From Owenia fusiformis (Eukaryota; Annelida; Polychaeta; Sabellida; Oweniidae): a stretch of DNA of 64,000 nt. The notes under the pieces were generated by a model that worked only from the letters and a program-made list of their open reading frames with translations, was not told the DNA's origin and did not search any database. Made by a program: the position numbers and the translations under genes. Positions within the stretch are counted from its first letter, which is position 1. Each line of letters opens with the position of its first letter. The DNA is taken from assembly GCA_903813345.2 (NCBI GenBank), contig CAIIXF020000007.1, positions 35,186,538 through 35,250,537 on the forward strand, given 5' to 3'. Below, piece after piece: positions 234 to 45,199 of this stretch.

Positions 234-394
234 TATTTTCTCTCGTAATATCCGACGTGGATAGCTTGAAAGAAGAAGTCCCCTTATTCGAGCATCTGCT
301 TAAGCAGTACAAACCTACATCTCGCCCTGTCCTAGCACAAAACAATACAATAAATGTCACAATGGATCTAGCACTAAACCAACTGAGGGATCTG
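234..394 (+). CDS. copy 1 exon 2: signal peptide end and N-terminal helix
   Basis: 161-nt exon beginning in phase 1. It encodes the end of a hydrophobic leader and the N-terminal helix of the ligand-binding domain (LFEHLLKQY...RPVL), with two possible N-glycosylation sites, NNT and NVT. It ends CTG|gtaaga. The length is identical to 8147-8307 in copy 2, which fixes the acceptor choice. Confidence 0.85.
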
Positions 395-3300
395 GTAAGA
401 CTGTAAAATGATACAAAAAATAATTGCAACGAGCGAACTTTGTAAAAATCTTAAGAAATGAAGTTTGTCTGACAATTTGACTAATCAATTAGAATTTTAT
501 AATATTCATATAGTTTAGTTTAGTTTATTTTTGTGTCACTGATATTACAATATAAAATACATCTGGTAAGACTGTAAAATGATACAAAAAATAATTGCAA
601 CGAGCGAACTTTGTAAAAATCTTAAGAAATGAAGTTTGTCTGACAATTTGACTAATCAATTAGAATTTTATAATATTCATATAGTTTAGTTTAGTTTATT
701 TTTGTGTCACTGATATTACAATATAAAATACATAATAAAAACAATATTTTGTAACATCACCAGCCATCACTAATGAGACACAGTATACATTATATCTGAG
801 TGTCACCCATTACTACCCCCAATGGGCAGCTTGGGTAAACATTCATAACGACAGAGACATATAATGTCTCTGGTAAAGATTTAATGATAATGATTCAATG
901 ATATCAATTCACAACTCTGATTAATCAGTTTGGCATAAATAAGTAGTTCATGGAATCATATTGTCAATCATTACATTAAATACATATATTGCACCTCATG
1001 TGAGATGGATATTGCATAATAATACATATATTGCACTAAATGAGAGTAGCATGTTGCATATGGTCAAATATTACAATAAATACAAATATTGCAATAAATG
1101 TGAATTGTACAAGTATAATGCATATGGTCGAAGACAGATATTACAATAAATACATATATTGCACTAAATGTGAGTAGCATGTTGCATATGGTCAAACATT
1201 ACAATAAATATGAATATTGCACTAAATGTGAATTGTATAATGCATATGGTCGAAGACAAATAAATACATATATTGCACTAAATGTAAGATGCATTTTGCA
1301 TAATAAATACATATATTGCACTAAATGTGAGTTGCAAGTTGTCAAATAATGCAATAAACACATATACTGTATTGCACGAAATGTGATTTGCATGAGTGAA
1401 TAAATAAAACAAGAACCCCGTAGTGTAATATGCACCTCTGTATGTAGTAGTGATCGAGACCATCTTCCCCAAGGGCGATAGCTCAAAGCACTAAAGAGAG
1501 GCATCATAAAACCAAGGAGCTTAATCTGACTAGATACATTTTAAATAAATATTTTATAAAGGAAACTTAGGTGACATTCATACTCATTTAGTGATCATAG
1601 CCTATCAATATTAAGAGATCTCTTATTGCACATATTGTAAACTAAAGCTCCTAATGGTCTTTGGAGTGAAGTAAAACATTTAAAATATGGAACGCTTCAC
1701 GAATTTGCGTGTCATCGTTGCGCATATACAATGTGCACATGCTTATTATGTCAAAAAGGTAACATCTGTCCAAAAAGTTGGAAAAAGGAGGACAGGTTTT
1801 AGTCCAAGAACTACTCATACAAAACAGCAAGTTACTGTTTTGACATCTTTTAGATTAAAGACCATTGTTTTGTTTGGTCACATCAGTTTTGGCATGGTGG
1901 TAGAAACGTGACATCACCTAAATAGGTGGATCCATAATTTTCAATAATTGCTGCAACACGTACTTTGACGTTACGTTCTCCACAGTTCTCTAAAGGATGT
2001 CATGAAGGATGGATGTTATCTATTAGTAGTTTAACAGTTTGAGTTAATGTAGCACTTACTGTAAATCATGAAGTTTGTGGAATGAGCACAACATCCGTCA
2101 GTTTAGGTGATGTCATCCTTCTACCCTTATGCCCCAGTTTAACTCGAACAATCAAACATAACTTTCGTCTGTCCGAATATACATGAATCCCTCTCTACTT
2201 TGAGTCCATTGACATTGTAACACGATACAACATGACACAACACCACGACATTCATTGATTTAGGTGATCTCACCCGTCTCATACTTTGCCCAAGTTTGAC
2301 TAAGACTGGTAAATTCAAACAAAGTTTCGCCTGTTCTCTAAAAGATGTTTAAAGATATACACATGAGTTGAGTAGATACTCAGATATAGCTTTCTCGAAT
2401 AATTCACTTTTTGAGAATCACGTACGTCTTGTCTAAGATGTTCCTAATCCCAGGCTTGTGAATTTGATTAGAATATGTATTTCAATCGTTTGTGGTTTAC
2501 TTTTCAGAATGAACCTGACCAATATTTATTAGTGGTCGTCTGGTTTCGATACGTGAGTATACATTAAAAATACATGCGTTCCCTATTAGTTAAAAAGCCA
2601 ACATATTAGAGAGATTTTGCAACTCACTTATAGCATGTTTATTATTCGGTATAACGTCCTTAAGTGTATATTCTTATAAATGTTCGTATGTACGTTAGAA
2701 TATCACACTTATGGACGTATAGAGCTGCAAGAAATGACGACGTTATCAAACGCTTCATAAGTTATACGTTAGGAAAATAAACATGCTATAAGTGATTTGC
2801 GAAATCTCCATAACATTAGATGATCCTTCTTCCCGTTAATGGAACTATGCGACTAAATCAAAGTTTATGTTATACAGTTTGTTAAAGCTGATTTCCCTCT
2901 ACACAGATTTTACATGTCTCTGCTCTACATGAACAGAAGTAAGATATGTTTTCAGAAAAAACTTCAGTTCATTTCTAAATATCTTTCTTTGCTTCATTAT
3001 CGACTGCGAAAAAATGTATATCATCCCGGGCAAAAATGTTATTTGAGATATCAATCAATATCAATCAATATCATCATCTGCTGGTTAGTAACTATTTAGA
3101 ACGGAAGTGATTACATCATAATGTAGGAATAATAGTACAATAACGTCATTTCGAAGGGCAATATAGTCGGCCCTCGGTCCAATATTTCACTATATTGCCC
3201 GCAGAAATGAGGTTATTAGTATTATTACCACCGTTAATTACCAGGACTGAAACAGCAAGAAAATCTTACGCTCTGAATGATATCTAATTTCCCAGGGAAA

Positions 3301-6300
3301 ATTGCATGCCGGTCATAATTGCACACTTGACCGGCTATGGTAACCGCCACTATGACCTCACATATGGTCCAGGTCGATATAGTAAAATGAATGCCTTCTA
3401 AACTAGCACTAAAACCCCTAGAACTGGCCCGACAAGGTGGTAATAATATGGAAGGGAAAGGGTGAACATAACAATCAAAATAATCAGAGTCATCTTTGAA
3501 GACTAGTCTTATGAGACTAAACCATTAATCTATTTGTAAAAAGATACGTCAAGTTCAATATTGAACATCCACATTTGCACTTCGTTTTTCTTTTTTTTAA
3601 ATTCTCTGATCCGTCTCATAATTGTATACATATCTAGCTGTGACCGATTATAATTGTATACATCTCTAGCTGTGACCGATTGGGCAACTTTAAAATTGTA
3701 TACATCTCTAGATGTGACCGATTGGGCAACTTTATAATTGTAAAAATGTCTAGATTTGACCGATTGGGCAACTTTATAATTGTATACATCTCCAGATCTG
3801 ACCGATTGGGCAATTTTATAATTGTATACATCTCTAGATGTGACCGATTGGGCAACTTTATAATTGTATAAATCTCTTGATGTGACTGATTGGGCAACTT
3901 TATAATTGTATAAATCTCTCGTAGTGACCGATTGGGCAACTTCATAATTGTATACATCTCTAGGTGTGACTGATTGGGCAACTTTATAATTGTATACATC
4001 TCTAGATGTGACCGATTTGGCAATTTTATAATTATAAACATCTCTTGATATGACCGATTGGGCAACTTCATAATTGTATACATCTCTAGATGTGACAGAT
4101 TGGGCAACTTTATAATTGTATACATCTCTAGATGTGACAGATTGGGAAATTTTATAATTGTATACATCTCTAGATGTGACCGATTGGGCAACTTTATAAT
4201 TGTATACATCTCTAGATGTGACCGATTGGGCAACTTTATAATTGTATACATCTCTAGATGTAATGATATTGCAGTTTCACTCTAGGTATGAACACATCCA
4301 ATTTCATCAAACATGTAACTGTCAAAAACCTCTTATAATCTAATGGACAATTTATACCTTATATCAACAGTAAATGATTAATCATATGTACTATGAACAT
4401 TTTAGGATTGTCTCGAGGTCACATTCCTTTTGAGACTCCATCACAGACTAACCATAATTTCATTGCTCGCAAACCTTACACTAGCTTCCCAAACACTTAC
4501 TTTTAGTAAGTGTTGTATGCAGTCAGATATTTCTTCTTGCAAGGTGAAATTAGATAATGTTTTTTCTACTTAGGTGTGTTATTATCCCCTGCACTGATTT
4601 TATTGCGTTCATCTGACTTTGATTGTTCGAAAGATTTATTTATCAATTTAACGTATAAGTGATGATAAACTAAAACAGATCCATTACATTCAATAAATTG
4701 GGGTCGAGATAACCCGAGTATCAAAGGCCGCCATGCAACGTTTGAAGTTATCGTTTATTCATTCATAATTTTATTAAAAATTGACTTTTGAAAAATGTTC
4801 CGATCTTTTAACTTAACAAATATTTGAATTTCCCGCCAAAGCAAAACGTTTTTTGATGATCAAATACATTTTTTCACAATTAATTAATTCGTTTTTCTTT
4901 AGTTTTTGAATATGATTAATTTTAAAATACGCACCTTTGTTGTTGTCTTACTTATCTCGAAAATAAATATTTATCATGTTTTGAATATTTTTCTACCATT
5001 GGTATGAGTGAAAACTGCTTTGGTAATTATCATTTCTATATGTGACTTTGAATCTGTTATAGCACCAAAATAGTGCCAAAAGGGGAAAAAACAAAGAGAA
5101 CTGCAAAACAAATTCTGGGCAACAACTCAAAACGTCTTTAGGCGCGTGACATTAGCCTTCCTTTTTGCCCCCTTTGTCACTTTTGCATGCTTATTTTTCA
5201 GTGGTGGATTGATGAACATCTCACATGGGATCCCAATGAATGGAGTAACATTACCGAACTTCGGTTTCACAGAGATGAAATTTGGAAACCCGACATAATG
5301 ATATATAATCAGTAAATATGCTTTTCTAGTTGATCAAAACTTCAATTGCAAAGTCATTACATGTAACAAGGGAGTATAGATAGAATGGTTTATAATTGAA
5401 TATAAGGTACATAAACAAACAAAACGTGAACTGTTTATATTTTGTCTTCGTGAAAAGTCTACATTATAAATAGAGTATTCTTGTGATTTTAGTGCAGATG
5501 AAGAACGCCATTCTGCAGAGGTTCTAGGAGAGTATTTTATCAACGTATACAGTAATGGTAGTGTCTATTGGCCTGTCCCCGCAATGATAAAAACCACATG
5601 TAAAGTTGACGTAACGTACTACCCCTTTGACACACAGAGGTGTCCAATCAAATTTGGCTCTTGGAGCTACCATGGGTTTCACCTTGATTTGCATCCTAAG
5701 AATGACACAGGAGATCTAACGAATTTCATTTCGCATGGCGAATGGAAAATTTTAGAATTTCCCGCTGTTAGGACATCTTTACTTTACGGTTGTTGTGATG
5801 AACCATACATTGATGTCACGTACACCGTTGTCATGCAACGCAAACCTATGTTTTACATCTTTAATCTGATGTTACCCTGTGTCCTGTTGATGGGGGTTGC
5901 CATGCTGGTGTTTTATTTGCCATCAGAGTCCGGAGAAAAGGTGTCACTAGCAGTTACGTTGCTGTTATCCATGACTGTGTTTTTGCTGGTAATAGCGGAG
6001 AATATGCCTCCTACATCAGATGTCATACCATTAATAGGTTTGCCCCTTTGCTATTTCATTCGGGTCTGTTCATGGCGTTTCTATGAAGAATTCGTTCCGT
6101 TCTAATTATGTCAAAACCAAAACCAGCTTGACTAACAAAACAACCTTTTTTGGGGTTGTCGAGTTGGCCGGCTTGAGCGCCGGCACGTTCAGGCTAGGCG
6201 ATTGGGCGCCGTAACCACGAGGTTGCGAGTTCGAGACGCGTGTGCTCCTTGTGTTTATTCATTGATAAATAATGACATACCTTCATCCGGACACCGTTTA

Positions 6301-7157
6301 CTAATTATAGTATAATTTGTCTCCCTCTAGGTCAATTCTTTGGTGCTACGATCGTCATACTTGGATTATCTACCGTTCTAACGGTGATACAATTGAATAT
6401 ACACTTTAATGGCGAGCATGGGTTAAAGGTGCCAACAGCCGTGCGGAAGATCGTACTGGTCTACATGGCTAAACCAGTCGGTATGAGACGCTTAGTTGCT
6501 TTCCACCTTGAAAGACTGAAGGTAAGCGATTCTGAATACTGAGTATTCTGAGTATTAGTCAATTATTTTATATATAACATTTTATGATTTAAATGGTGTA
6601 TTGTTTACTGTCATTTCTGTAAGATTTATTTCTCTGTTTAGGCATATGATGAAGTAGATGAGGATATCAGACAGAGCATCTGTGATTTACAAGGGCCAGA
6701 TATCATGCAACTTTACAACACCAGAACAAAGGTGCAAAAAATTGAATCCCTGTCAGGTAACTTGTCTCCGTTACCTATGTCAACGATGGGTACTACGTCC
6801 CGTGCGTTGACGCCCAGTTTCGGATCAGTAAGGTCAAAGTCACCAGGTGATAACCGTTATGGTGCTAGGTCGCCATTTGAACCGTCGATGCAAAATAATG
6901 TTGTCACTGGGCAAACCAATTCGATTCTTTTGGACATTCTGCGAAACATGGAAGAGATGAACAACTTTCTTAGTAATGAAAAGGAAGAAAAAGAAACAAG
7001 AGGTTTACACAAGCACGAATGGCAACTGGTTGCTATGGTAATGGACAGGTATCTGTTGATAGGAATGGTTGTATTGACTCTCGTCACGATTCTTGCGATT
7101 TTTCTGGGACCGCAGGATTATTCGAAGGGGATTTACTGGGAAGAAATAACTTCATGA
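234..7157 (+). CDS. nicotinic acetylcholine receptor-like subunit, alpha type (copy 1, 5' incomplete)
   Basis: A Cys-loop ligand-gated cation channel subunit, expected to assemble as a pentamer in the plasma membrane and open on acetylcholine or a related ligand. Exons are 234-394, 2508-2552, 5202-5311, 5493-6037, 6331-6521 and 6642-7157, all with GT-AG borders and keeping frame. The 45-bp and 110-bp exons are typical of the family. Visible features are the 13-residue Cys-loop (CKVDVTYYPFDTQRC), loop A IYN, loop B GSWSY, loop C YGCCDEPY with the vicinal cysteines that define alpha subunits, and the complementary-face Trp (RYWW). There are four membrane segments; TM2 has Glu at -1', Leu at 9' and Glu at 20', which predicts cation selectivity. 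Its introns are much larger than those of copy 2 because repeats have inserted. The signal-peptide exon is missing at the window edge. The exact ligand and the subfamily (alpha7/9-like or a lophotrochozoan-specific clade) cannot be settled by eye. Confidence 0.93.
391..732. repeat. perfect 171-bp tandem duplication spanning a splice donor
   Basis: The 171 bases from 391 are repeated immediately from 562 with no difference that I can see. The duplicated unit starts at TCTGgtaaga, the last exonic bases plus the 5' splice site of copy 1 exon 2, so intron 2 holds a second donor 171 bp downstream. It is either a very recent duplication or an assembly artefact. Confidence 0.9.
851..871. repeat. short palindrome with CAGAGACAT arms
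   Basis: CAGAGACAT and ATGTCTCTG face each other around TAA. The CAGAGACATATAA arm recurs in a longer hairpin at 50536-50580, so both may be marks of a small interspersed repeat. Confidence 0.4.
960..1405. repeat. degenerate minisatellite in intron 2 of copy 1
   Basis: The motif ATACATATATTGCACTAAAT recurs about seven times with drift, alternating with GCATATGGTC-containing blocks. Two adjacent blocks of about 112 bp (near 1024-1137 and 1150-1260) look like a higher-order unit. Small ORFs on both strands here are by-products of the repeat. Confidence 0.65.
1406..2507 (+). other. intron 2 remainder, degraded repeats
   Basis: No coding exon is visible. Stretches near 2095-2210 and 2255-2350 resemble one another (TTTAGGTGAT followed by CCCAGTTTRACT-like sequence). 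GACATCACCTAAAT near 1911 is the inverse of TTTAGGTGATGTCA near 2105. These look like worn interspersed repeats. Confidence 0.4.
2508..2552 (+). CDS. copy 1 exon 3: 45-bp binding-domain exon
   Basis: Encodes NEPDQYLLVVVWFRY between TTTTCAG and gtgagt. A 45-bp exon at this place is a hallmark of nAChR genes. The segment is strand beta1 leading to the loop D tryptophan. Confidence 0.9.
2611..2808. mobile_element. 198-bp MITE with 33-bp inverted repeats
   Basis: The left end GAGATTTTGCAACTCACTTA and the right end read in reverse (GAGATTTCGCAAATCACTTA) match over about 33 bp with two differences. The interior is also weakly self-complementary. It has no coding capacity and lies in intron 3 of copy 1. 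No clear target duplication was found, so the superfamily is unknown. Confidence 0.7.
3128..3226. mobile_element. 99-bp hairpin element
   Basis: AATAATAGTACAATAACGTC at the left and its near-complement at the right (AATAATACTAATAACCTCAT in reverse) form a stem of about 38 bp around a GGGCAATATAG core. A related sequence sits at 54914-55015, so this is a family rather than a chance fold. Confidence 0.65.
3619..4262. repeat. 42-bp minisatellite, about 15 copies
   Basis: The unit is roughly CATCTCTAGATGTGACCGAT followed by TGGGCAACTTTATAATTGTATA. Because 42 is a multiple of three, frames stay open on both strands; the minus strand gives a 205-codon run of a 14-residue repeat (MYTIIKLPNRSHLE). 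It lies within intron 3 of copy 1, and I read it as noncoding satellite. The first unit is shortened by about 13 bp. Confidence 0.9.
4263..5201 (+). other. intron 3 remainder
   Basis: AT-rich intron sequence. I see no exon, repeat or RNA gene. It ends in the acceptor TTATTTTTCAG. Confidence 0.6.
5202..5311 (+). CDS. copy 1 exon 4: 110-bp exon with loop A
   Basis: Encodes WWIDEHLTWDPNEWSNITEL through IWKPDIMIYNH. It carries the loop D Trp, the conserved W-x-P-D motif and the loop A Tyr, plus an NIT glycosylation site. A 110-bp exon here is characteristic of nAChR genes. Confidence 0.92.
5493..6037 (+). CDS. copy 1 exon 5: Cys-loop, loops B and C, TM1-TM2
   Basis: 545-nt exon encoding the Cys-loop, loop B GSWSY, loop C YGCCDEPY, TM1 (FYIFNLMLPCVLLMGVAMLV) and the pore helix TM2 with its EKVSLAVTLLLSMTV core. 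It ends in phase 1 (ATAG|gtttgc). Twelve bases longer than its counterpart in copy 2. Confidence 0.93.
6151..6248 (+). mobile_element. tRNA-derived SINE-like sequence
   Basis: GC-rich block within an intron with an A-box-like GTTGTCGAGTTGG and a B-box-like GGTTGCGAGTTCGAGAC about 60 bp apart, as in RNA polymerase III promoters. No clean acceptor stem or tRNA cloverleaf is evident, so a SINE head is more likely than a tRNA gene. Confidence 0.5.
6331..6521 (+). CDS. copy 1 exon 6: TM3 and start of cytoplasmic loop
   Basis: 191-nt exon encoding TM3 (FFGATIVILGLSTVLTVIQL) and KIVLVYMAKPVGMRR. Ends AAG|gtaagc in phase 0. About 87% identical in protein to copy 2. Confidence 0.92.
6642..7157 (+). 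CDS. copy 1 exon 7: cytoplasmic loop, TM4, stop
   Basis: 516-nt terminal exon. It encodes a Ser/Pro-rich intracellular loop, the amphipathic helix before TM4 (KHEWQLVAMVMDRY), TM4 (YLLIGMVVLTLVTILAIFLG) and a short tail ending WEEITS. Same length as the last exon of copy 2 and about 91% identical in protein. Confidence 0.93.
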   Translation, partial: AYDEVDEDIRQSICDLQGPDIMQLYNTRTKVQKIESLSGNLSPLPMSTMGTTSRALTPSFGSVRSKSPGDNRYGARSPFEPSMQNNVVTGQTNSILLDILRNMEEMNNFLSNEKEEKETRGLHKHEWQLVAMVMDRYLLIGMVVLTLVTILAIFLGPQDYSKGIYWEEITS

Positions 7158-7930
7158 TTGATACAGATGTCCCCGCACAATGATGGCAAGTCAGTTCAAC
7201 AGAGAAGAAAATCAGTTTTACAGGGCTATCCCTGAGCAAGAACATAGTAGTGCACCTGAATGTATTTCCCACACCTGTTTAAACTAGAGCTGCTTATACG
7301 TATTTCCCTGTTACATTGTTTTGTATTAACTTTAAAACACTAAAAATCAAAATATATTTATTGTACTGTAGTATGATGATTTACTTTTGTGCTGTTATGA
7401 AAACAACAGTCCATCAATGTCTTTATATCAGCATCAACATATCATTGAAAAATTAAATATTGCATCAGGTATCGTAAAAAGATCCTAAATAAATAACCAA
7501 TACTCATCATTGCCACGCCTCATGCCATTTTATTCAAGTCTGGACCACTGTTTATTTTTGTATTTTATATATCGAAGCCTTTGAATTATATGTAACACCA
7601 AAACGATGTAAATTGGTATATGGACAAAGCATTTGTCACAAAAATATTGAAATGGATTTAGCCGAAGGTGTACATAATTTGTACATTAGGCTATTAACCC
7701 ATGTCATTTCTCGTTATAAATTGTTCCATCAACATAATTCGATTATGTGCAGTGCAGACTTGACCAAATAGTGTCATTTGAAGTATAGCCCAATATAGAG
7801 ATGATACATATGGTCATATCCTGACAAATTATAATGACAAATCCTATATGGGGTGTGGATGCGCTAATAGATGCAGATCCAGACTATTGTTGATGCTTGA
7901 CGAGAAAATAAGAGTAAAACAAGAAGAGAA
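7158..7930 (+). other. 3' UTR of copy 1 and spacer to copy 2
   Basis: Homology to the copy 2 3' UTR continues for about 60 bp after the stop (TGATACAGATGTC, GATGGCAAGT) and then fades. The rest is AT-rich spacer that must also hold the promoter of copy 2; no TATA box was convincing. Confidence 0.5.
7488..7493 (+). terminator. poly(A) signal AATAAA, copy 1
   Basis: The first canonical AATAAA after the stop, about 330 nt downstream, followed by T-rich sequence near 7550. It is the probable 3' end signal for copy 1. Confidence 0.5.
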
Positions 7931-7973
7931 ATGATTACTCTTAATAAACGGTCATTTCTTATGGGACTTATTG
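7931..7973 (+). CDS. copy 2 exon 1: start codon and signal peptide
   Basis: 43-nt exon encoding MITLNKRSFLMGLIG up to ATTG|gtaagt. The phase-1 donor joins 8147 to give a hydrophobic leader (FLMGLIGMVLGSLG). Only this start keeps the 161-nt second exon in frame and provides a signal peptide. Confidence 0.8.
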
Positions 7974-10900
7974 GTAAGTTTTGTTTTATTCAATATTACA
8001 TTATAGAATACTTCTAAAAGCATTAAACAATTTTTAATGTAATAATTATATATATTATATATATTCTAATGATGTGTTTCTGAAATACCTCAATTATATA
8101 TCAAAGGTATAGTATAACAATTAAGCCTTTAATCTCGTTTTGTAAGGCATGGTCCTAGGGTCACTAGGGGTAAATAGCTTAAAGGAGGAGATGCCACTGT
8201 TTCACCACTTACTGAAGGAATACAAAGCTACGTCACGGCCAGTTCTTGCACAGACAACAGCAATAAATGTAACCATGGATTTAGCTCTAAACCAACTGAG
8301 GGACTTGGTAAGATATCAACATGAACATAGATTTTTTCTTCATTTGAAAGTGCTAAAATGATTCTTGGCCGATTACCCGATACCTTATTATCCAATCGAA
8401 CGTCGTTCTAGAGGGATATAGAAAAGTCATTCGTCTGTCCGTTCGTTCATGTGTCCAGACAGTAACTCAAATACCGATTGACGGATTTGGTTCAAATTTT
8501 AAAGGCTTGTGCCGACGGACAAAGAAGGTGCAGTGCGCAAGAAAATGAATACCAGTGGACTGACTTTGTTCAATTTTACATGCTGATGCCTAGGGACAAA
8601 GTAAATCTGCTTAAGAATTTTCCAAGATAATCGCTTAATTTCTAAATGGTCGCCATTTTTCTCAAAAATGCAACATTCTCTATCTTGTATGAGTACAAGT
8701 TTATGAATACTATATACTAATTCACTATATTTTTGATGATACGCATATTTTTATACAAAGGACTCGTATGTTATGAGAATTGGTTATGACTTGGGAAAGA
8801 ATGAAATGCCCCTTAGTGTTATGGTCTGAAATTGTGATAATGGTATTTGAATGGTGAGGGAGGGGTATTAGACATTGTTTCTTTTCACGTAAGATTATGG
8901 TTTTGGATAGTTGGGGTTAGCTTTTCTTATGACTTCTGTCAGATGTTTATTTTGGGGTACATTATAATGTAAGAGGTGAGGTTAATTAACGTGACAATGA
9001 ATTTAAATAACAACCGAATTGGGAGTATATATTATATAAACGTCCCTGTATGGGTAGCAGTGTAAGATTGTCCATTCTTGGTGTCCATCGACAAATTATC
9101 ATGTTACTGTTTTATGTATTTTTCACTTCAGAATGAGCCTGATCAGTACTTGATGGCGGGTGTCTGGTTTCGATATGTGAGTATACATAAATAGTGGTCG
9201 ATGCAATGTATAAAACTCTTAGTTAGTATTCATCATCCGTGACCAAGGCATAGAAACATAGTTTCTCTAATTGCTGTTTTGAATCAATATCAAAACAATA
9301 CCTTGTGAAATATGTACTCAAAAATAAAAAAACTCGAGCAAGTCGAACCATTAAAACCAGTATATTTCCTTAACTTCATTTCTGACCACTTTTGATATTG
9401 ATTATAAATATTCATGATCATGACATATATGAGAAATTGCCATGGTCATATGTTTCTTTTCGTTGTTTCATATCACATCGGCCAAAATTATTCATCATCT
9501 ATTCCTATCATATACAATTTATAAGAAATTAGTTTTTGACATTGTAACTTGGATCTATTAAGTTGGTGTTTTAGTGGTGGATTGATGAACATCTTACATG
9601 GGATCCTGAGGAGTGGAGTAACATTACTGAACTTCGGTTTCTCAAAGATGAAATCTGGAATCCAGATATACTGATATTTAACCAGTATGTATTCATACGA
9701 TATATCATTCGAAGTAAAGTGAATCAATTTTTTCAAATTAGAAAATATTACGAAAAATGGCACAACCAAATGCTATTTTAAAAACCCCAGTCTTCGCTGA
9801 ACAGGCTCAACAAGTCCATGGTATATACAATGGTAATCCATGTAATCAAAACACGATTAGTTGGCCTAGTTGCATCTCTTGTGTATTTGTGTATTTTAGT
9901 GCAGATGAAGAACGCCTTGCTAGTGAAGTCTTAGGAAACTACACAATCTACGTGTACAGTGATGGTCGTGCCTTTTGGCCTGTCCCCGCCATGATAAAAA
10001 CCACGTGCAAAGTTGATGTCACATACTACCCTTTCGACACACAGAGGTGTCCAATCAAATTTGGCTCAGGAAGCTATCACGAGTTTCACCTTGATATTTA
10101 TCCGAAGAGCTGTACTGGGGATATCAAATCTTTTGTCAACCATGGCGAATGGAAAATCTTAGAAATGCCTGCAATAAGAAAATCTTTGAATAAAGAACCA
10201 TACGTTGAGGTAACGTACACAGTTGTTATGCGACGCAAGCCTATGTTTTACATCTTGAATCTGATGTTGCCTTGTATTGTTTTGGTGGGTATGGCCTTGC
10301 TGGTCTTCTACTTGCCACCAGAGTCGCAGGAAAAGGTGTCGCTTTCAGGAACGTTGCTGTTATCGATGACAGTGTTTCTGTTAGTAATAGCAGAAAACAT
10401 GCCTCCTACATCAGACGTCATACCTCTTATAGGTGGGTTTCTTTTTACATTTGAAGTTTTCCATATGGAAAAATAAAGTTGAATATCGCGCCGTTACCCC
10501 TTTCAAAATTTACGGATATCGTGTAGCTTAGAGACTTTTGATATGGTAAAAATGAGAAATGAAAATCCTCTTTTAGGAAAATAAGTCCAAAACTATTTTT
10601 AAACCACAAGTCTTCACTCATTCTCCATTTCACATCTAGTATTTTGTCGCTCTAGTAAACCATTAACAGCAGCATGTTCATCATGAAAAATGATATGAAT
10701 GAAATATTCATTTTTCTCTCAAGGTCTGTTCTTTGGTGCTTCGATCGTCATAGTTGGATTGTCGACCATATTAACAGTTATGCAACTGAACATTCACTTC
10801 TATGGAGTGCATGGGTTAAAGGTACCCTCAGCAGTGCGGAAGATCGTACTGGTATACATGGCTAAACCAGTCGGTATGAGACGCTTAGTTGCTTTCCATC

Positions 10901-11603
10901 TTGAAAGATTAAAGGTCAGTAATTGTGAATATTACCGTCACTTATATTATAATTGTTTATTTCACCATTTAATGGTTTATGACTGTCGTTCTTCTTTGTT
11001 AGAAATTATAATTGTTTACTGCTTTGTCATTTCTGTTTAATATATCATGTTTACTGCATATCAATCAAGATTTATTTCTATGTTTAGGCATATGATGCAG
11101 TAGATGAGGATATCAGACAGAGTATCTGTGATTTACAAGGGCCGGATATCATGCAACTTTACAGCACTAGAACAAAGGTGCAAAGAATTGAATCCCTGTC
11201 AGGAAACTCGTCTCCGTTACCTATGTCAACGCTGGGTACTACGTCCCGTACGTTGTCCCCCAGTTTCGGATCAGTAAGTCCAAGGTCGTCAGGTGATAAC
11301 CGTTATGGTGCAAGGTCACCATTTGAACCGTCGATGCAAAATAATGTTGTGACCGGGCAAACCAATTCGATTCTTTTGGACATTCTACGAAACATGGAAG
11401 AAATGAACAACTTTCTTAGTAATGAAAAGGAAGAAAAGGAAACAAGAGGTTTACACAAGCACGAATGGCAACTGGTTGCTATGGTAACGGACAGGTATAT
11501 GTTGATAGGAATGGTTGTATTGACTCTCGTAACGATTCTTGTGATTTTTCTGGGACCACGGGATTATTCGAAGGGGATTTACTGGGAAGAAATAACTTCA
11601 TGA
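7931..11603 (+). CDS. nicotinic acetylcholine receptor-like subunit, non-alpha type (copy 2, complete)
   Basis: Seven exons: 7931-7973, 8147-8307, 9132-9176, 9575-9684, 9900-10432, 10724-10914 and 11088-11603, giving 532 aa in frame. Signal peptide about residues 1-25, ligand-binding domain to about 230, Cys-loop cysteines 156 and 170, TM1 about 236-258, TM2 about 263-285, TM3 about 298-320, cytoplasmic loop to about 497, TM4 about 498-517. The pore sequence EKVSLSGTLLLSMTV predicts a cation channel. Three principal-face determinants are gone: loop A Tyr is Phe (IFN), loop B Trp is Gly (GSGSY), and loop C lacks the Cys pair and its Tyr (SLNKEPY). The complementary-face Trp (RYWW) remains. It is therefore probably a non-alpha subunit needing an alpha partner, possibly copy 1, 773 bp upstream. 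An accessory or dominant-negative role is possible. Confidence 0.93.
8147..8307 (+). CDS. copy 2 exon 2: N-terminal helix
   Basis: 161 nt from the acceptor TTTTGTAAG to the donor TTG|gtaaga. Encodes the rest of the leader and LKEEMPLFHHLLKEY...NVTMDLALNQLRDL. It lacks the NNT glycosylation site found in copy 1. Confidence 0.88.
9132..9176 (+). CDS. copy 2 exon 3: 45-bp exon
   Basis: Encodes NEPDQYLMAGVWFRY between CACTTCAG and gtgagt. Same length and phase as copy 1. Confidence 0.9.
9575..9684 (+). CDS. copy 2 exon 4: 110-bp exon, loop A changed
   Basis: Encodes WWIDEHLTWDPEEWSNITEL through IWNPDILIFNH. The loop A position that is Tyr in copy 1 is Phe here, while the loop D Trp is kept. Confidence 0.92.
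9900..10432 (+). CDS. copy 2 exon 5: Cys-loop, altered loops B and C, TM1-TM2
   Basis: 533 nt, 12 nt shorter than in copy 1 through loss of four codons in loop C that removes Tyr-x-Cys-Cys. Loop B reads GSGSY instead of GSWSY. TM1 and TM2 are intact. Ends ATAG|gtgggt. The preceding intron happens to be open in frame from 9757. Confidence 0.93.
10724..10914 (+). CDS. copy 2 exon 6: TM3
   Basis: 191 nt encoding TM3 (LFFGASIVIVGLSTILTVMQ) and KIVLVYMAKPVGMRR, ending AAG|gtcagt in phase 0. Confidence 0.92.
11088..11603 (+). CDS. copy 2 exon 7: cytoplasmic loop, TM4, stop
   Basis: 516 nt with the same Ser/Pro-rich loop, pre-TM4 helix (KHEWQLVAMVTDRY), TM4 and WEEITS tail as copy 1. There are fifteen amino-acid differences in 171. 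The intron before it also retains stretches shared with copy 1 (TCATTTCTGT, AAGATTTATTTCT). Confidence 0.93.
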   Translation, partial: AYDAVDEDIRQSICDLQGPDIMQLYSTRTKVQRIESLSGNSSPLPMSTLGTTSRTLSPSFGSVSPRSSGDNRYGARSPFEPSMQNNVVTGQTNSILLDILRNMEEMNNFLSNEKEEKETRGLHKHEWQLVAMVTDRYMLIGMVVLTLVTILVIFLGPRDYSKGIYWEEITS

Positions 11604-12761
11604 ATCATGACTGATACAGATGTCATAATACAAGGATGGCAAGTTCGTTAAAGAGATGAACATACTTCAGTTGTATAGTGTATTATAGACGGAACCATGA
11701 ACAAGAGCATATAGTAGTCGGAACAAACATATCGTGATATATAAAGATGTCACAGCACAACTATACAGATAAAAGCATTACAATATATCTGAGTTTTACA
11801 TATAGATGGAATCAATGGGAAGCAATATATAATATCCTGGTAATATAGTTATACGTCCATTTATAGCCTTTTTTAATCAAAAGGTTTATTCCATTGATTT
11901 ATGATACCATAGTGTTGGTGAAAATTGCCCCTGGGTATCAAATGCCATTCTCTTGAAATATTCGAGTATCATAAAATATAGCATAAGTTCAATAGAATAC
12001 AAATAATCCCGATAATGTTTAATTTAAATCTTCTATATCATAAGAAAATAAGCGTTCAGCTGTATAGTGTAAATGAACTGAAGTATGCAAATAAAATGGC
12101 AAAAAGTTACTTATTGTTTCAATGATAGTAGATGTGCAGATGATTTAAAAATATTATGTTCAAATATATTTGTGTCAAGTCAGATCAAGCACGAGCCTTG
12201 AAAGATCTACATATATTTACACCTTGACCCATTACTTATACATGTATAGGATGGGCCAAAAAACAAGTACATAAATACCCGTTTAAAGATGAATTATTCA
12301 TGTGATCTATCTCAAACCATGCAATGTAACATATTATATGCTTTTAAAGATAACTAATTCTCTAACAATATGACACCATCCGAGTGATGAAAAACATTTG
12401 TTTTTGTGGAGTTAGAGGCTAGACACCAGGGATCTCAAGAGCGACCAAAATTTAAAAAAAGAAAATTCTCGAATTTCCCTTCACATTGCAGTCACAGGTG
12501 CACTCGATATGCTTGACTGAATCACTCTAAATTTGTATAAGAACAATACACAGTTGATAGTTAATTAAAAGGATATAAGTGTTACTGGTGAATTTTGCAA
12601 TGAACGTTTCTAGATGTACCTCTTTTGAAATGTGAGATGTGAATATAAATGTGTTTATTGAGCAGAATTGTTACATCCTATGCTAAATTCCACACATTCC
12701 ACATTTAAGGGGTAAAATCGTCTTAAAATCATGTTTTGGACGGGTTTTGGCACGACAATAA
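11604..12761 (+). other. 3' UTR of copy 2 and AT-rich spacer
   Basis: AT-rich, with no ORF of note. TGTATAGTGTA occurs twice (near 11671 and 12061), a weak direct repeat bracketing the 3' UTR. Confidence 0.45.
12090..12095 (+). terminator. poly(A) signal AATAAA, copy 2
   Basis: Canonical hexamer about 490 nt past the stop, followed by a T-rich stretch (TTACTTATTGTTTC). Likely the 3' end signal for copy 2. Confidence 0.45.
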
Positions 12762-13500: not shown

Positions 13501-14589
13501 ACGAGGGGTGATCAATAAGTAATGGACGCTTTTTTACACAGATACTTTTTATAGACTAATCCCTTTGATTTTCCTACCAGTGATACATCATTCAATTATC
13601 TATAATTTCTGAGGATTTGAAGACAAAATTTAAAATATATGTTGATATATCTTTATTTCCGTGAAGGAGGTACAGGTACACCGGGACCGACATTTACGTC
13701 ACATATTCAGTTTTCAGCCAGTTTGGCAAATTTCAGTTAGATTTAAACTTTTCATATGAAACATGTGTTGTGTTGTTTGAAATACTTTGCTGACTGGTCA
13801 ACACATAAACAGAAAGTATTGTGATGTCAGAGTGTTGTATGGAAGGGGTTTGCAGGTCAATTTGAGAAAGCATTGTGGAAGAAAGGGGTGGTGAGAGAAG
13901 GGAACACCCTACTCCATATGGACAATGCCCCTGCCCACAGATCTCAAAATGTTCAGAAAACAATATCCATGGACCTCAAAATTGAGCTCTTGGCCAATGC
14001 ACCATATTGTCCAGATCTGCTCACATTTGACTTATTTATTTCTATACTACTTATTTCTATAGAGAAAGGATGCATGTTTATTTATATTGATGAAATAAAA
14101 CAACCCATGCAACTGCATCTTGCTACCATGTCAGAGAATGGATTCAGTCTTGTCTCGCAATCTTGAATTAAGAGGATGAGGAATTGTGTACATGTAGCAC
14201 TTGATGGAACCTATGTAGAGGGCTCTGTGGAATGAATGTGGCATGAATACCACATAGTGATGATAAAATATTCAAAATCAACTATGGCATAACAAAATGG
14301 GGTAATTCATGACCATAATGGATTGTTTTGTTCAGCCTGCATTCAACTGCATTGCGTGTTAAACAAGCTAAAATAGCTTCAGAATGTTTGACGTAAATGT
14401 CGGTCCCGGGGTACCTATACATCCTTCACGGAAATAAAGATATATCAAAAGATATTAAATGCTTTGTTTTCAAATCTTCAGAGTTGATAGATAATTGAAT
14501 GATGTATCACTGGTAAGAAAATCGAAGGGATTGGTCTATAAAAAGCATCTGTGTAAAAAAGTGTCCATTACTTATTGATCACCCCTCGT
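13501..14589 (+). mobile_element. mariner-like element with about 200-bp inverted repeats
   Basis: Ends begin ACGAGGGGTGATCAATAAGT, a mariner-type terminus, inside TATATAT flanks consistent with TA target sites. The inverted repeats run 13501-13700 and 14390-14589, far longer than the roughly 30 bp usual for mariner. Total length 1,089 bp, with a broken transposase between. Confidence 0.85.
13873..14166 (+). pseudogene. mariner transposase remnant
   Basis: The frame encodes HMDNAPAHRS and, 24 residues on, PYCPDLLTFDLF, matching the second and third catalytic-Asp regions of mariner transposases (typically HDNAxPH and PYSPDLxPxDxxLF). The N-terminal DNA-binding half is absent and the C-terminus diverges, so the product would be inactive. 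Confidence 0.8.
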
Positions 14590-18188: not shown

Positions 18189-19088
18189 GTAGTCGGTATT
18201 GTAACTCGACTCTGTATTCCAGTCATATCATTGATCCTAAAAGTAGATTCCGTATCCTGGTCATATGGATAGTCGGCCTTGTAACTAGATTCCGTATCTC
18301 TGTCATATGGATAGTCGGTGTTGTAACAGACTTGAACGTGTTCCAGTCATTTTGAATAACCGGTATTGTAACTAGGCTATTCCTTTTATCAGTCTTTCAA
18401 CTAAGCTCCGTATCCTGGTCATATGGATACTCGGTCTTGGATAGTCGGTGTTGTAACTATAATCTGTATCCCTGTCATATGGATAGTCGGTCTTGTAACT
18501 AGACTCCGTATCCCTGTCATATGGATAGTCGGTATTGTAACTAGACCCCATATTCCAGTCGGTCTTGTATCTAGACTCTGTATCCATGTCGTCTGGATAG
18601 TCGATATTGTAACTAAAATTTGTATCCCCGTCATATGGATAGTCGGTCTTGTAACTAGATCTAGAATCTGTATCCCCGTCATATGGATAGTCGGTCTAGT
18701 AACTTTAATCTGTATCCCCGTCATATGGATGGTCGGCCTAGTAACTTTAATCTGTATCCCCGTCATATGGATGGTCGGCCTTGTAACTAGATCTAGAATC
18801 TGTATCCCTGTCATATGGATAGTCGGTCTCGTAACTAGACTCTGTATCCCTATAATATGGATAGTCGATCTTGTAACTAGACTCTGTATCCCTGTCATAT
18901 GGATAGTCGGTCTTGTAAGTAGACCCCATATTCCAGTCGGTCTTGGATCTAGACTCCGTATCCCTGTCATCTGGATAGTCGGTCTTTGAACTTTAATCTG
19001 TATCCCCGTCATATGGATAGTCGGTCTTGTAACTAGAATCCGTATCCCTGTCATATGGGTTGTCGGTCTTCCGATAGTTGGCCTTGTG
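18189..19088. repeat. 42-bp minisatellite with Tyr/Asp-rich reading frame
   Basis: About 20 units of a drifting 42-bp repeat (core CTGTCATATGGATAGTCGGT). Long ORFs appear on both strands because the period is divisible by three. One minus-strand frame reads DYPYDRDTESSYKT repeatedly, which looks protein-like, but it is interrupted by stops (for example near 18747) and irregular unit lengths. A decayed repetitive coding exon is possible; satellite is simpler. Confidence 0.85.
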
Positions 19089-40382: not shown

Positions 40383-41004
40383 ACTTATAGTGTTGCGAGG
40401 TCTAGTGTAGTATAGTTTAGTGTACTGTGATTTCTACTTTAGTGTAGTATAGTGTAGTGTATAGTAGTATGGCGTGTTTTAGTATAGTGTAGTTTTGTGT
40501 AGTATAGTGTAGTGTATTGTAGTATGGCGTGTTTTAGTATAGTCTAGTTTTGTGAAGTGTAGTATAGTGTAGTGTATTGTAGTATGGCGTGTTTTAGTAT
40601 AGTGAAGTTTTGTGAAGTGTAGTATAGTGTAGTGTATTGTAGTATGGCGTGTTTTAGTATAGTTTAGTTTTGTGAAGTGTAGTATAGTGTAGTGTATTGT
40701 AGTATGGTGTGTTTTAGTTCAGTGAAGTTTTGTGAAGTGTAGTATAGTGTAGTGTATTGTAGTATGGCGTGTTTTAGTATAGTCTAGTTCTGTGAAGTGT
40801 AGTATAGTGTAGTGTATTGTAGTATGGTGTGTTTTAGTATAGTGAAGTTTTGTGAAGTGTAGTATAGTGTAGTGTATTGTAGTATGGCGTGTTTTAGTAT
40901 AGTCTAGTTCTGTGAAGTGTAGTATAGTGTGTATTGTAGTATGGCGTGTTTTAGTATAGTGTAGTCAGTTTGTGAAGTGTAGTATAGTGTAGTGTACGTG
41001 ATGA
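40383..41004. repeat. 60-bp higher-order minisatellite built from AGTRT pentamers
   Basis: Units of exactly 60 bp (AGTATAGTGTAGTGTATTGT onward) repeat about seven times from 40561, with a few variable bases and one shortened copy near 40921. Inside, AGTGT and AGTAT pentamers make up most of the unit, so a simple repeat has been amplified as a larger block. Confidence 0.92.
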
Positions 41005-43849: not shown

Positions 43850-44375
43850 ACTATAACAACATGACCTAGCACATTTGGATAAATCACCTCACACGTGGAC
43901 ATCACATATCGACATATCACATCACGAATGACCATAGCACATCACATATTATCATATCACATTACAGATGAACATAGCACATCACATATCGACATATCGC
44001 ATCATGAATGAACATAGCACATCACATACCAACATATCGCATCACGAATGAACGTAGCAAATCAAGCAAATCACATACTGACATAACACATCACGAATGA
44101 ACATAGCACATCGCATACCGACATACAGTGTACGCATCGTGAAAGAACATAGCACATCACATACTGAAATATTGCAACACAAATGAAAATAGAACATCTC
44201 ATACTGACACATCACATCACTAATGAACATAGCACATAATATATTGCAGCACGAATAAACATAGCACGTCATATATCACATGACAAATGAACATAATACA
44301 TCACATACCGATACATAGCACATCACATATTGACATATTGCACCACGATTGAACATTGCACATTACATCCGGACA
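43850..44375. repeat. about 40-bp minisatellite
   Basis: Units around GAACATAGCACATCACATAT plus CGACATATCGCATCACGAAT, with indels. It grades into the 20-bp array that follows and shares the GAACAT...ATCAC vocabulary, so the two may have a common origin. Confidence 0.85.
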
Positions 44376-44382
44376 TTTGTGA

Positions 44383-45199
44383 TGAACACATGATATCACA
44401 GCTGAATATATGATATCAAAATTGAACATTTGATATCACAGCTGAACATATGATATCACAACTGCACATTTAATATATCACGAATGAACATATGATATCA
44501 CAGCTGAACATATGATATCACAATTGAACATTTGATATCACAACTGAACATATGATTTCCAAACAGAACATATGATATCACAACCGAACTTATGATATCC
44601 CGACTGAACATATGATATCAAAACAGAACATATGCTATCACAACTGAATATATGGTATCACAACTGAACATATGATATTAAGGCTGAACATATGATATCA
44701 CAACTGACCATATGATATCACGGCTGAAAATATGATATCACGACCGATCATGTGATATCACGACTGAACATATGATATCACGACTGAGCATATGATATCA
44801 CGGCTGAACATATGATATCACAACTGACCATATGATATCAAAACAGAGCGTATGATATCACGACTGAACATATGATATCACAAATGACCATATGCTATCA
44901 CAACTGAACATATGGTATCACAACTGAACATATGATATCACGGCTGAACATACGATGTTTCAACTGACCATATGATATCACGGCTGAAAATATGATATCA
45001 CAAATGGACATATGATATCACGACTGAACATATGATATCACAGCCGATCATATGATATCACGGCTGGACATATGATATCACGATTGAACATATGATATCA
45101 CAACTGACCTTTTTCGATATCACGACTGAACATATGGTATCACAACTACACATATGATATCACAGCTGAACATATGATTTGACAGCTGAACATATGATC
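44383..45199. repeat. 20-bp minisatellite, about 40 copies
   Basis: Unit GAACATATGATATCACAACT with variable positions 17-20. Each unit carries CATATG and TGATATCA palindromes. Period is very regular, with a few 1-4 bp indels near 45110. Confidence 0.92.

Follow-up and report, generated by a model that had tools for sequence, protein, structure and literature searches.

How does a receptor subunit come to stand directly beside a close relative whose acetylcholine-binding face it no longer shares, and what might it do there? The question is raised by a 64,000-base stretch of the Owenia fusiformis genome (hereafter the window; contig C7, CAIIXF020000007.1, positions 35,186,538 to 35,250,537 of the forward strand, in a 498 Mb genome), where two genes of the nicotinic acetylcholine receptor (nAChR) type lie head-to-tail at window positions 234-11603. 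The adjacent pair of loop C cysteines that is the hallmark of alpha subunits is present in the first gene (copy 1) and absent from the second (copy 2). The two appear to be tandem duplicates of an alpha7-like gene, of which copy 2 would now work only as a member of heteropentamers, with no normal principal (+) face of its own and with copy 1 as its likeliest partner, a reading to which we give a probability of roughly one half. Within the pair, the last exon is far less diverged than the exons that encode the binding domain.

Membership of the family is clear for both genes. Copy 2 scored 171.5 bits against the Pfam model Neur_chan_LBD (cut-off 26) and 119.3 bits against Neur_chan_memb (cut-off 28.1), its best-scoring solved relatives are alpha7 receptors, and two exons of the ligand-binding domain (LBD) of copy 1 were matched in a genome search with the LBD model. 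The family-defining Cys-loop, two cysteines with 13 residues between them, is CKVDVTYYPFDTQRC in copy 1 and copy 2, and the loop D Trp is likewise identical. The copies differ at loop A, which reads IYN in copy 1 (Tyr codon at 5304-5306) and IFN in copy 2 (Phe codon at 9677-9679), at loop B, which reads GSWSY (Trp codon at 5662-5664) and GSGSY (Gly codon at 10069-10071), and at loop C, where YGCCDEPY (5785-5808) faces SLNKEPY (10183-10203) after the deletion of four codons. The aromatic box of copy 2 is thus not complete, having Phe in loop A, Gly in loop B and only the second of the loop C tyrosines. A preliminary description of the locus had listed these residues and the shared splice phases correctly, but its statement that copy 2 had lost the whole principal face goes too far: most of the face is gone, but the final loop C Tyr (EPY) is retained and Phe preserves the ring in loop A. 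Its further claim that the pore was unchanged and that nothing was damaged elsewhere does not hold: loops E and F differ, and there are three changes in or beside the membrane segment M2 (ESGEKVSLAVT in copy 1 versus ESQEKVSLSGT in copy 2).

A normal (+) face for acetylcholine depends, in nicotinic receptors, on the Trp of loop B and on the loop C tip. As both are gone from copy 2, which retains what folding and the pore require, no such face would be expected of it, and a role as a non-alpha subunit within heteropentamers is the most likely one. Whether this state is ancestral or derived depends on the ancestry of the pair. When the genome was searched with exon 5 of copy 1, 98 matches were obtained; the best 52 of them (the two copies and 50 other places) were surveyed, and a tree was built from 53 rows (the 50 paralogues of the same genome, both copies and one alpha7) and 195 columns from which loops A, B and C had been removed; gene models were partial beyond the two copies and paralogue L002, whose model was without exon 1. 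The copies were sisters with support of 100/97, and again (100/99) when the ligand-binding columns were used alone. They are 78% identical over exon 5, compared with 62% for the next paralogue among the 98 matches listed, which, together with a gene structure shared throughout, rules out a chance resemblance. The pair was nested in a clade of 14 rows (97/98), its other members being L002 and eleven further rows that mostly show long open frames, as intronless genes do. Within this clade, the Cys pair occurs in 11 of 14 rows, and the loop B Trp is missing only from copy 2 among the 13 rows with a letter at that position. The placement of L002 shifts, as it joins the pair (100/91) and not the intronless genes in the ligand-binding tree.

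Copy 2 therefore does not fall into an old, separate non-alpha clade, the outcome that the preliminary description had set against its own proposal, and it looks like an alpha-derived duplicate by comparison with the paralogues of its own genome and one alpha7. Forcing it into the five-member non-alpha clade of L023, L025, L028, L030 and L031 was rejected by the approximately unbiased (AU) test (p = 0.00146), as was forcing it together with L002 (p = 0.00144), both groupings having been picked after the tree was seen. Copy 1 sits on an end branch of 0.014 and copy 2 on one of 0.24 (0.042 and 0.185, respectively, in the LBD tree), which suggests that copy 2 changed while copy 1 stayed near the ancestral alpha state. 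The loop B Trp is ancestral in both trees. Loss of the Cys pair is derived in copy 2 on the full tree, while on the LBD tree two losses cost the same as one loss followed by a regain in copy 1; two independent losses are preferred here because they differ in kind, L002 having a full-length loop (YHDGYAEPF) and copy 2 a deletion. The losses in loops B and C are thus most likely derived in copy 2.

Such losses are not equally common across the family. Among the 50 surveyed paralogues, the Cys pair is found in 33 and lacking in 17, whereas the loop B Trp is replaced in just two of the 49 with a letter there (Lys in L044, Arg in L048). Loop A has a residue other than Tyr in 14 of 36 paralogues, these letters being rough, as the exon was aligned piecewise and 14 of the 50 have no letter there. 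None of the 35 paralogues in which all three loops could be read combines losses in loops A, B and C; L048, with loop A unread, has neither the Cys pair nor the loop B Trp. On the tree, the Cys pair requires at least nine changes, loop B at least three and loop A at least 11. Of 14 neighbouring pairs lying within 100 kb of one another among the 52 places, two mix alpha and non-alpha genes, namely copy 1/copy 2 and L036/L021. In this genome, then, it is ordinary for a surveyed receptor to do without the Cys pair, but few have lost the loop B Trp, and tight alpha/non-alpha neighbours are uncommon.

The sequence of events proposed here would begin with the tandem duplication of an alpha7-like gene within the large nicotinic family. 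Copy 1 would have remained close to the ancestral alpha state, and copy 2, with Phe in loop A, would have lost its Trp in loop B and, along with the Cys pair, the tip of loop C while keeping the Cys-loop, the pore and the membrane segments. Unable to build a normal principal face for acetylcholine, copy 2 may then act inside heteropentamers beside alpha-type subunits, either supplying the complementary (−) face at an alpha(+)/copy 2(−) interface or taking up a non-binding position, and its last exon would have been homogenised with that of copy 1 after the binding domains had diverged. Copy 1 would be the likeliest partner, since the genes stand about 0.8 kb apart and encode a nearly identical intracellular loop and fourth membrane segment (M4). 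The nicotinic intracellular loop influences trafficking and assembly.

Whether copy 2 contributes a complementary face can be judged in part from where the copies differ. The positions compared, numbered on alpha7 (PDB chain 43sn_A), are those we take to make up each face. The principal face is formed by loops A-C and the complementary face by loops D-F (PMC8634148). Identity between the copies is 12/21 on the principal face (p = 0.02) and 13/21 on the complementary face (p = 0.08), against 125/154 in the rest of the LBD; an earlier choice of positions gave 9/18, 11/19 and 131/159, respectively. The divergence of copy 2 thus sits on both faces, with loop D spared. The dedicated complementary subunit of the preliminary description is plausible in that loop D is identical at all six chosen positions, but unproven in that loops E and F are identical at only 7/15. 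In loop F, copy 2 also has an additional Cys (10111-10113) that is without counterpart in copy 1 and L002, a possible unpaired thiol near the subunit interface.

Several points weigh against the heteropentamer reading. The complementary face has not been specially preserved, as identity to copy 1 falls to 4/9 in loop E and 3/6 in loop F. The Phe of loop A also occurs in L002, the nearest outside paralogue, which leaves the loop A change without a firm polarity, and the excess of unique LBD changes in copy 2 over copy 1 (14 versus 5, p = 0.06) is suggestive at most. The ratio of nonsynonymous to synonymous divergence (dN/dS) between the copies, about 0.10 in the LBD and 0.16 overall, is a rough pairwise value that is not specific to the copy 2 branch, LBD dS being near saturation. 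Similarly, the control for the last exon, copy 1 against L002, with differences at about 74 of the 82 synonymous sites in exon 7, involves a poor alignment of the intracellular loop. Finally, the polychaete receptor Alpo4, which has Phe in loop A and no Cys pair, still has a ligand-occupied orthosteric site in its solved structure (PMC10338036).

The most serious alternative, which we regard as possible though clearly the less probable account, is that copy 2 is an accessory subunit that joins no acetylcholine site and instead tunes trafficking, conductance or desensitisation, as muscle beta1 and neuronal beta3 are examples of. That both faces have changed relative to copy 1 while the pore and the intracellular loop are largely kept is what such a subunit might be expected to look like; the undisturbed loop D with its Trp is not, and change in loops E and F is weak evidence in any case, as these loops are variable between copy 1 and other relatives (6/9 and 3/6 identical to L002, 2/9 and 4/6 to L003). 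We consider it rather doubtful that the site of copy 2 has instead been remodelled for another ligand, with copy 2 acting alone or in heteromers. Orphan receptors with unusual binding sites are known in lophotrochozoans, Alpo4 being one (PMC10338036), dN/dS between the copies is low, and the loop A Phe and one loop C Tyr are still there. However, with the Trp of loop B gone and loop C shortened, little of an aromatic box is left, the Trp is rarely replaced among the surveyed paralogues, and Alpo4 itself has W159 (PMC10338036). Judged from the sequences, a purely accessory subunit or one with a changed ligand would fit nearly as well as a complementary one.

The second peculiarity of the pair, which the preliminary description had overlooked, is the uneven divergence along its length. 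Synonymous divergence (dS) is saturated in exons 1-3 and amounts to 0.68 in exon 4, 0.93 in exon 5 and 0.57 in exon 6 (1.30 for the whole LBD), but to 0.146 in exon 7, where about 15 of 113 synonymous sites differ compared with 136 of 236 in exons 1-6 (p = 7e-16). Fourfold sites follow suit, differing at 13/16 in exon 2, 0/3 in exon 3, 4/7 in exon 4, 26/60 in exon 5, 8/27 in exon 6 and 11/66 in exon 7. Exon 7 is about 94% identical between the copies and its amino-acid identity is 91%, versus 30-38% for the six other exon 7 matches listed in the genome. Except near exons, the introns barely align (copy 1 5160-7520 compared with copy 2 9530-11960). Intron 6 does match at its 3′ end, however, as do the bases directly following the stop codon, so that the less diverged tract spans the 3′ part of intron 6, exon 7 and the first bases of the 3′ untranslated region, at approximately 6595-7210 in copy 1, with ends set by eye, and approximately 11000-11660 in copy 2, on the plus strand in both. 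The copies are old duplicates, and the simplest cause of their far less diverged last exon would be gene conversion after the binding domains had diverged. Conversion mediated by cDNA was considered, given that most of intron 6 matches less well than the exons do. It is unneeded, since the final part of that intron matches too and conversion at the DNA level suffices.

For the mosaic, though not for the role of copy 2, a further explanation compatible with the readings above is that selection for the same intracellular partners, not conversion, has kept the last exons alike. The 91% amino-acid identity of exon 7 would agree with this, but we think it improbable, since synonymous divergence there is about ninefold below that of the LBD, the adjoining intron bases match as well, and exon 7 synonymous sites appear free to vary in the (poorly aligned) comparison with L002. 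A much younger last exon is compatible with co-assembly of the two subunits and is not proof of it. More tentatively, the locus could be a self-maintaining alpha/non-alpha module, in which the binding domains are held apart by selection and the intracellular loop and M4 are kept alike by gene conversion; neighbouring genes would then always yield subunits that match inside the cell and present opposite binding faces outside.

Decay of copy 2 into a pseudogene, or its origin as an artefact of the assembly, is highly improbable and was rejected, despite the loss of several binding residues and the longer branch. Its frame is open over seven exons with usable splice sites, its deletion is in frame, the pairwise LBD dN/dS of about 0.1, though rough, argues against decay, and no third close copy or alternative haplotype occurs among the 98 matches listed (the next being 62% identical).

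Loss of binding residues in nicotinic duplicates is already known in the gene family, and copy 2 is one further case. In the gamma subunit of vertebrate muscle, for example (PDB chain 9avu_B), Glu replaces the Tyr of loop A, Gln replaces the Trp of loop B, and the Cys pair is missing. The muscle non-alphas (gamma, delta and epsilon) are, however, an old non-alpha group, whereas copy 2 is the sister of the adjacent alpha-type copy 1 and shares with it a much less diverged last exon. Several vertebrate nAChR genes are local duplicates that are still close together, and neighbouring alpha and non-alpha genes are known among them (PMC6354393). The window pair also resembles the lophotrochozoan nAChR expansion (Jiao et al. 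2019, PMC6896357) in belonging to a large family with tandem arrays and intronless members; in the oyster C. gigas, only 33 of the 132 genes encode alpha subunits, 13 of which have the full principal site (PMC6896357). No alpha/non-alpha sister pair is described in the parts of that paper examined, and neither 'gene conversion' nor 'complementary' was found in a word search of its main text. An alpha/non-alpha pair with a homogenised last exon was likewise not found among the titles listed by literature searches for gene conversion in nicotinic genes, none of which concerned that subject, or by word in PMC6896357 and PMC6354393.

Parallels to single features of copy 2 come from polychaetes. 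Alpo3-like and Alpo4 lack the Cys pair, and Alpo4 has Phe in loop A (PMC10338036). In Alpo4, however, the Trp of loop B and two tyrosines of loop C are still present, while copy 2 is without that Trp and the first of the tyrosines. Within O. fusiformis, L036 (C10:21720865; C10:21719800-21721500) combines a loop A Phe with absence of the Cys pair and a four-residue gap at the loop C tip, is sister to an alpha clade of four (98/92), and has the alpha-type L021 of the same genome as its sister gene; unlike copy 2, it keeps the loop B Trp and lies 54 kb from its alpha neighbour L021. L036 appears to have undergone part of the change seen in copy 2 independently.

The window pair is a clear case in which an alpha subunit has apparently become a non-alpha one, and a single locus displays the probable direction of this change, an ancestral-like sister and a mosaic of divergence. 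If the copies do co-assemble, the locus would illustrate how heteromeric acetylcholine receptors can arise by few steps, and how sequence exchange can keep one domain of two duplicates similar while another takes on separate roles.

Copy 1 occupies window 234-7157 plus an upstream exon 1, and copy 2 window 7931-11603, both being otherwise complete and on the plus strand. The stop of copy 1 is separated from the start codon of copy 2 by 773 bases that contain candidate polyadenylation signals at 7452 and 7488. Both frames are open and spliceable, with equal splice phases, and exons 2, 3, 4, 6 and 7 are of equal length in the two copies (161, 45, 110, 191 and 516 nt). Exon 1 of copy 1 (C7:35186256-35186283, or 7719-7746 of L001, the flanking stretch upstream of copy 1; 28 nt, splice phase 1) begins 282 bases before the first base of the window, while that of copy 2 (7931-7973, 43 nt) carries the start codon and a signal-peptide-like start. 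Exon 2 (234-394 in copy 1, where it was placed by splice sites and frame, and 8147-8307 in copy 2) encodes the N-terminal part of the LBD, and the 15 codons of exon 3 (2508-2552 and 9132-9176) include the loop D Trp, within VWFRY in copy 1 and retained in copy 2. Loop A lies in exon 4 (5202-5311 and 9575-9684). Exon 5 (5493-6037, 545 nt, and 9900-10432, 533 nt, the difference being the four-codon deletion) holds the Cys-loop, loops B and C, and membrane segments M1 and M2, exon 6 (6331-6521 and 10724-10914) holds M3, and exon 7 (6642-7157 and 11088-11603) the intracellular loop, M4 and the stop.

Two repeats fall within copy 1. A perfect 171-base tandem duplication (window 390-733; two copies, 100% identical) begins within exon 2 and spans its splice donor, which creates a second donor-like site in the intron. 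A 42-base minisatellite of about 15 copies occupies window 3648-4261, also in an intron, and, its period being a multiple of three, gives rise on the minus strand to an open frame of 248 codons, probably without meaning. Elsewhere in the window, a Pfam scan of eight long open frames gave a single weak match, a fragment at 13825-14163 resembling a DDE transposase (DDE_3, E = 7e-4, under the curated cut-off), and minisatellite arrays with periods near 42, 60 and 20 bases lie at 18244-19070, 40403-40996 and 43899-45198, respectively.

Two further arrays of nicotinic genes were encountered among the surveyed paralogues. Four genes in the same orientation at C7:727000-768900 (L025, L028, L030 and L031) have no Cys pair and retain the loop B Trp. 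The 25 kb contig C155 carries five same-orientation genes (L008, L009, L011, L034 and L043) of the same clade as the window pair, of which three have long frames whose match is free of stops, while a single stop interrupts L011 and L043 is broken; these genes were possibly retroposed and then tandemly duplicated.

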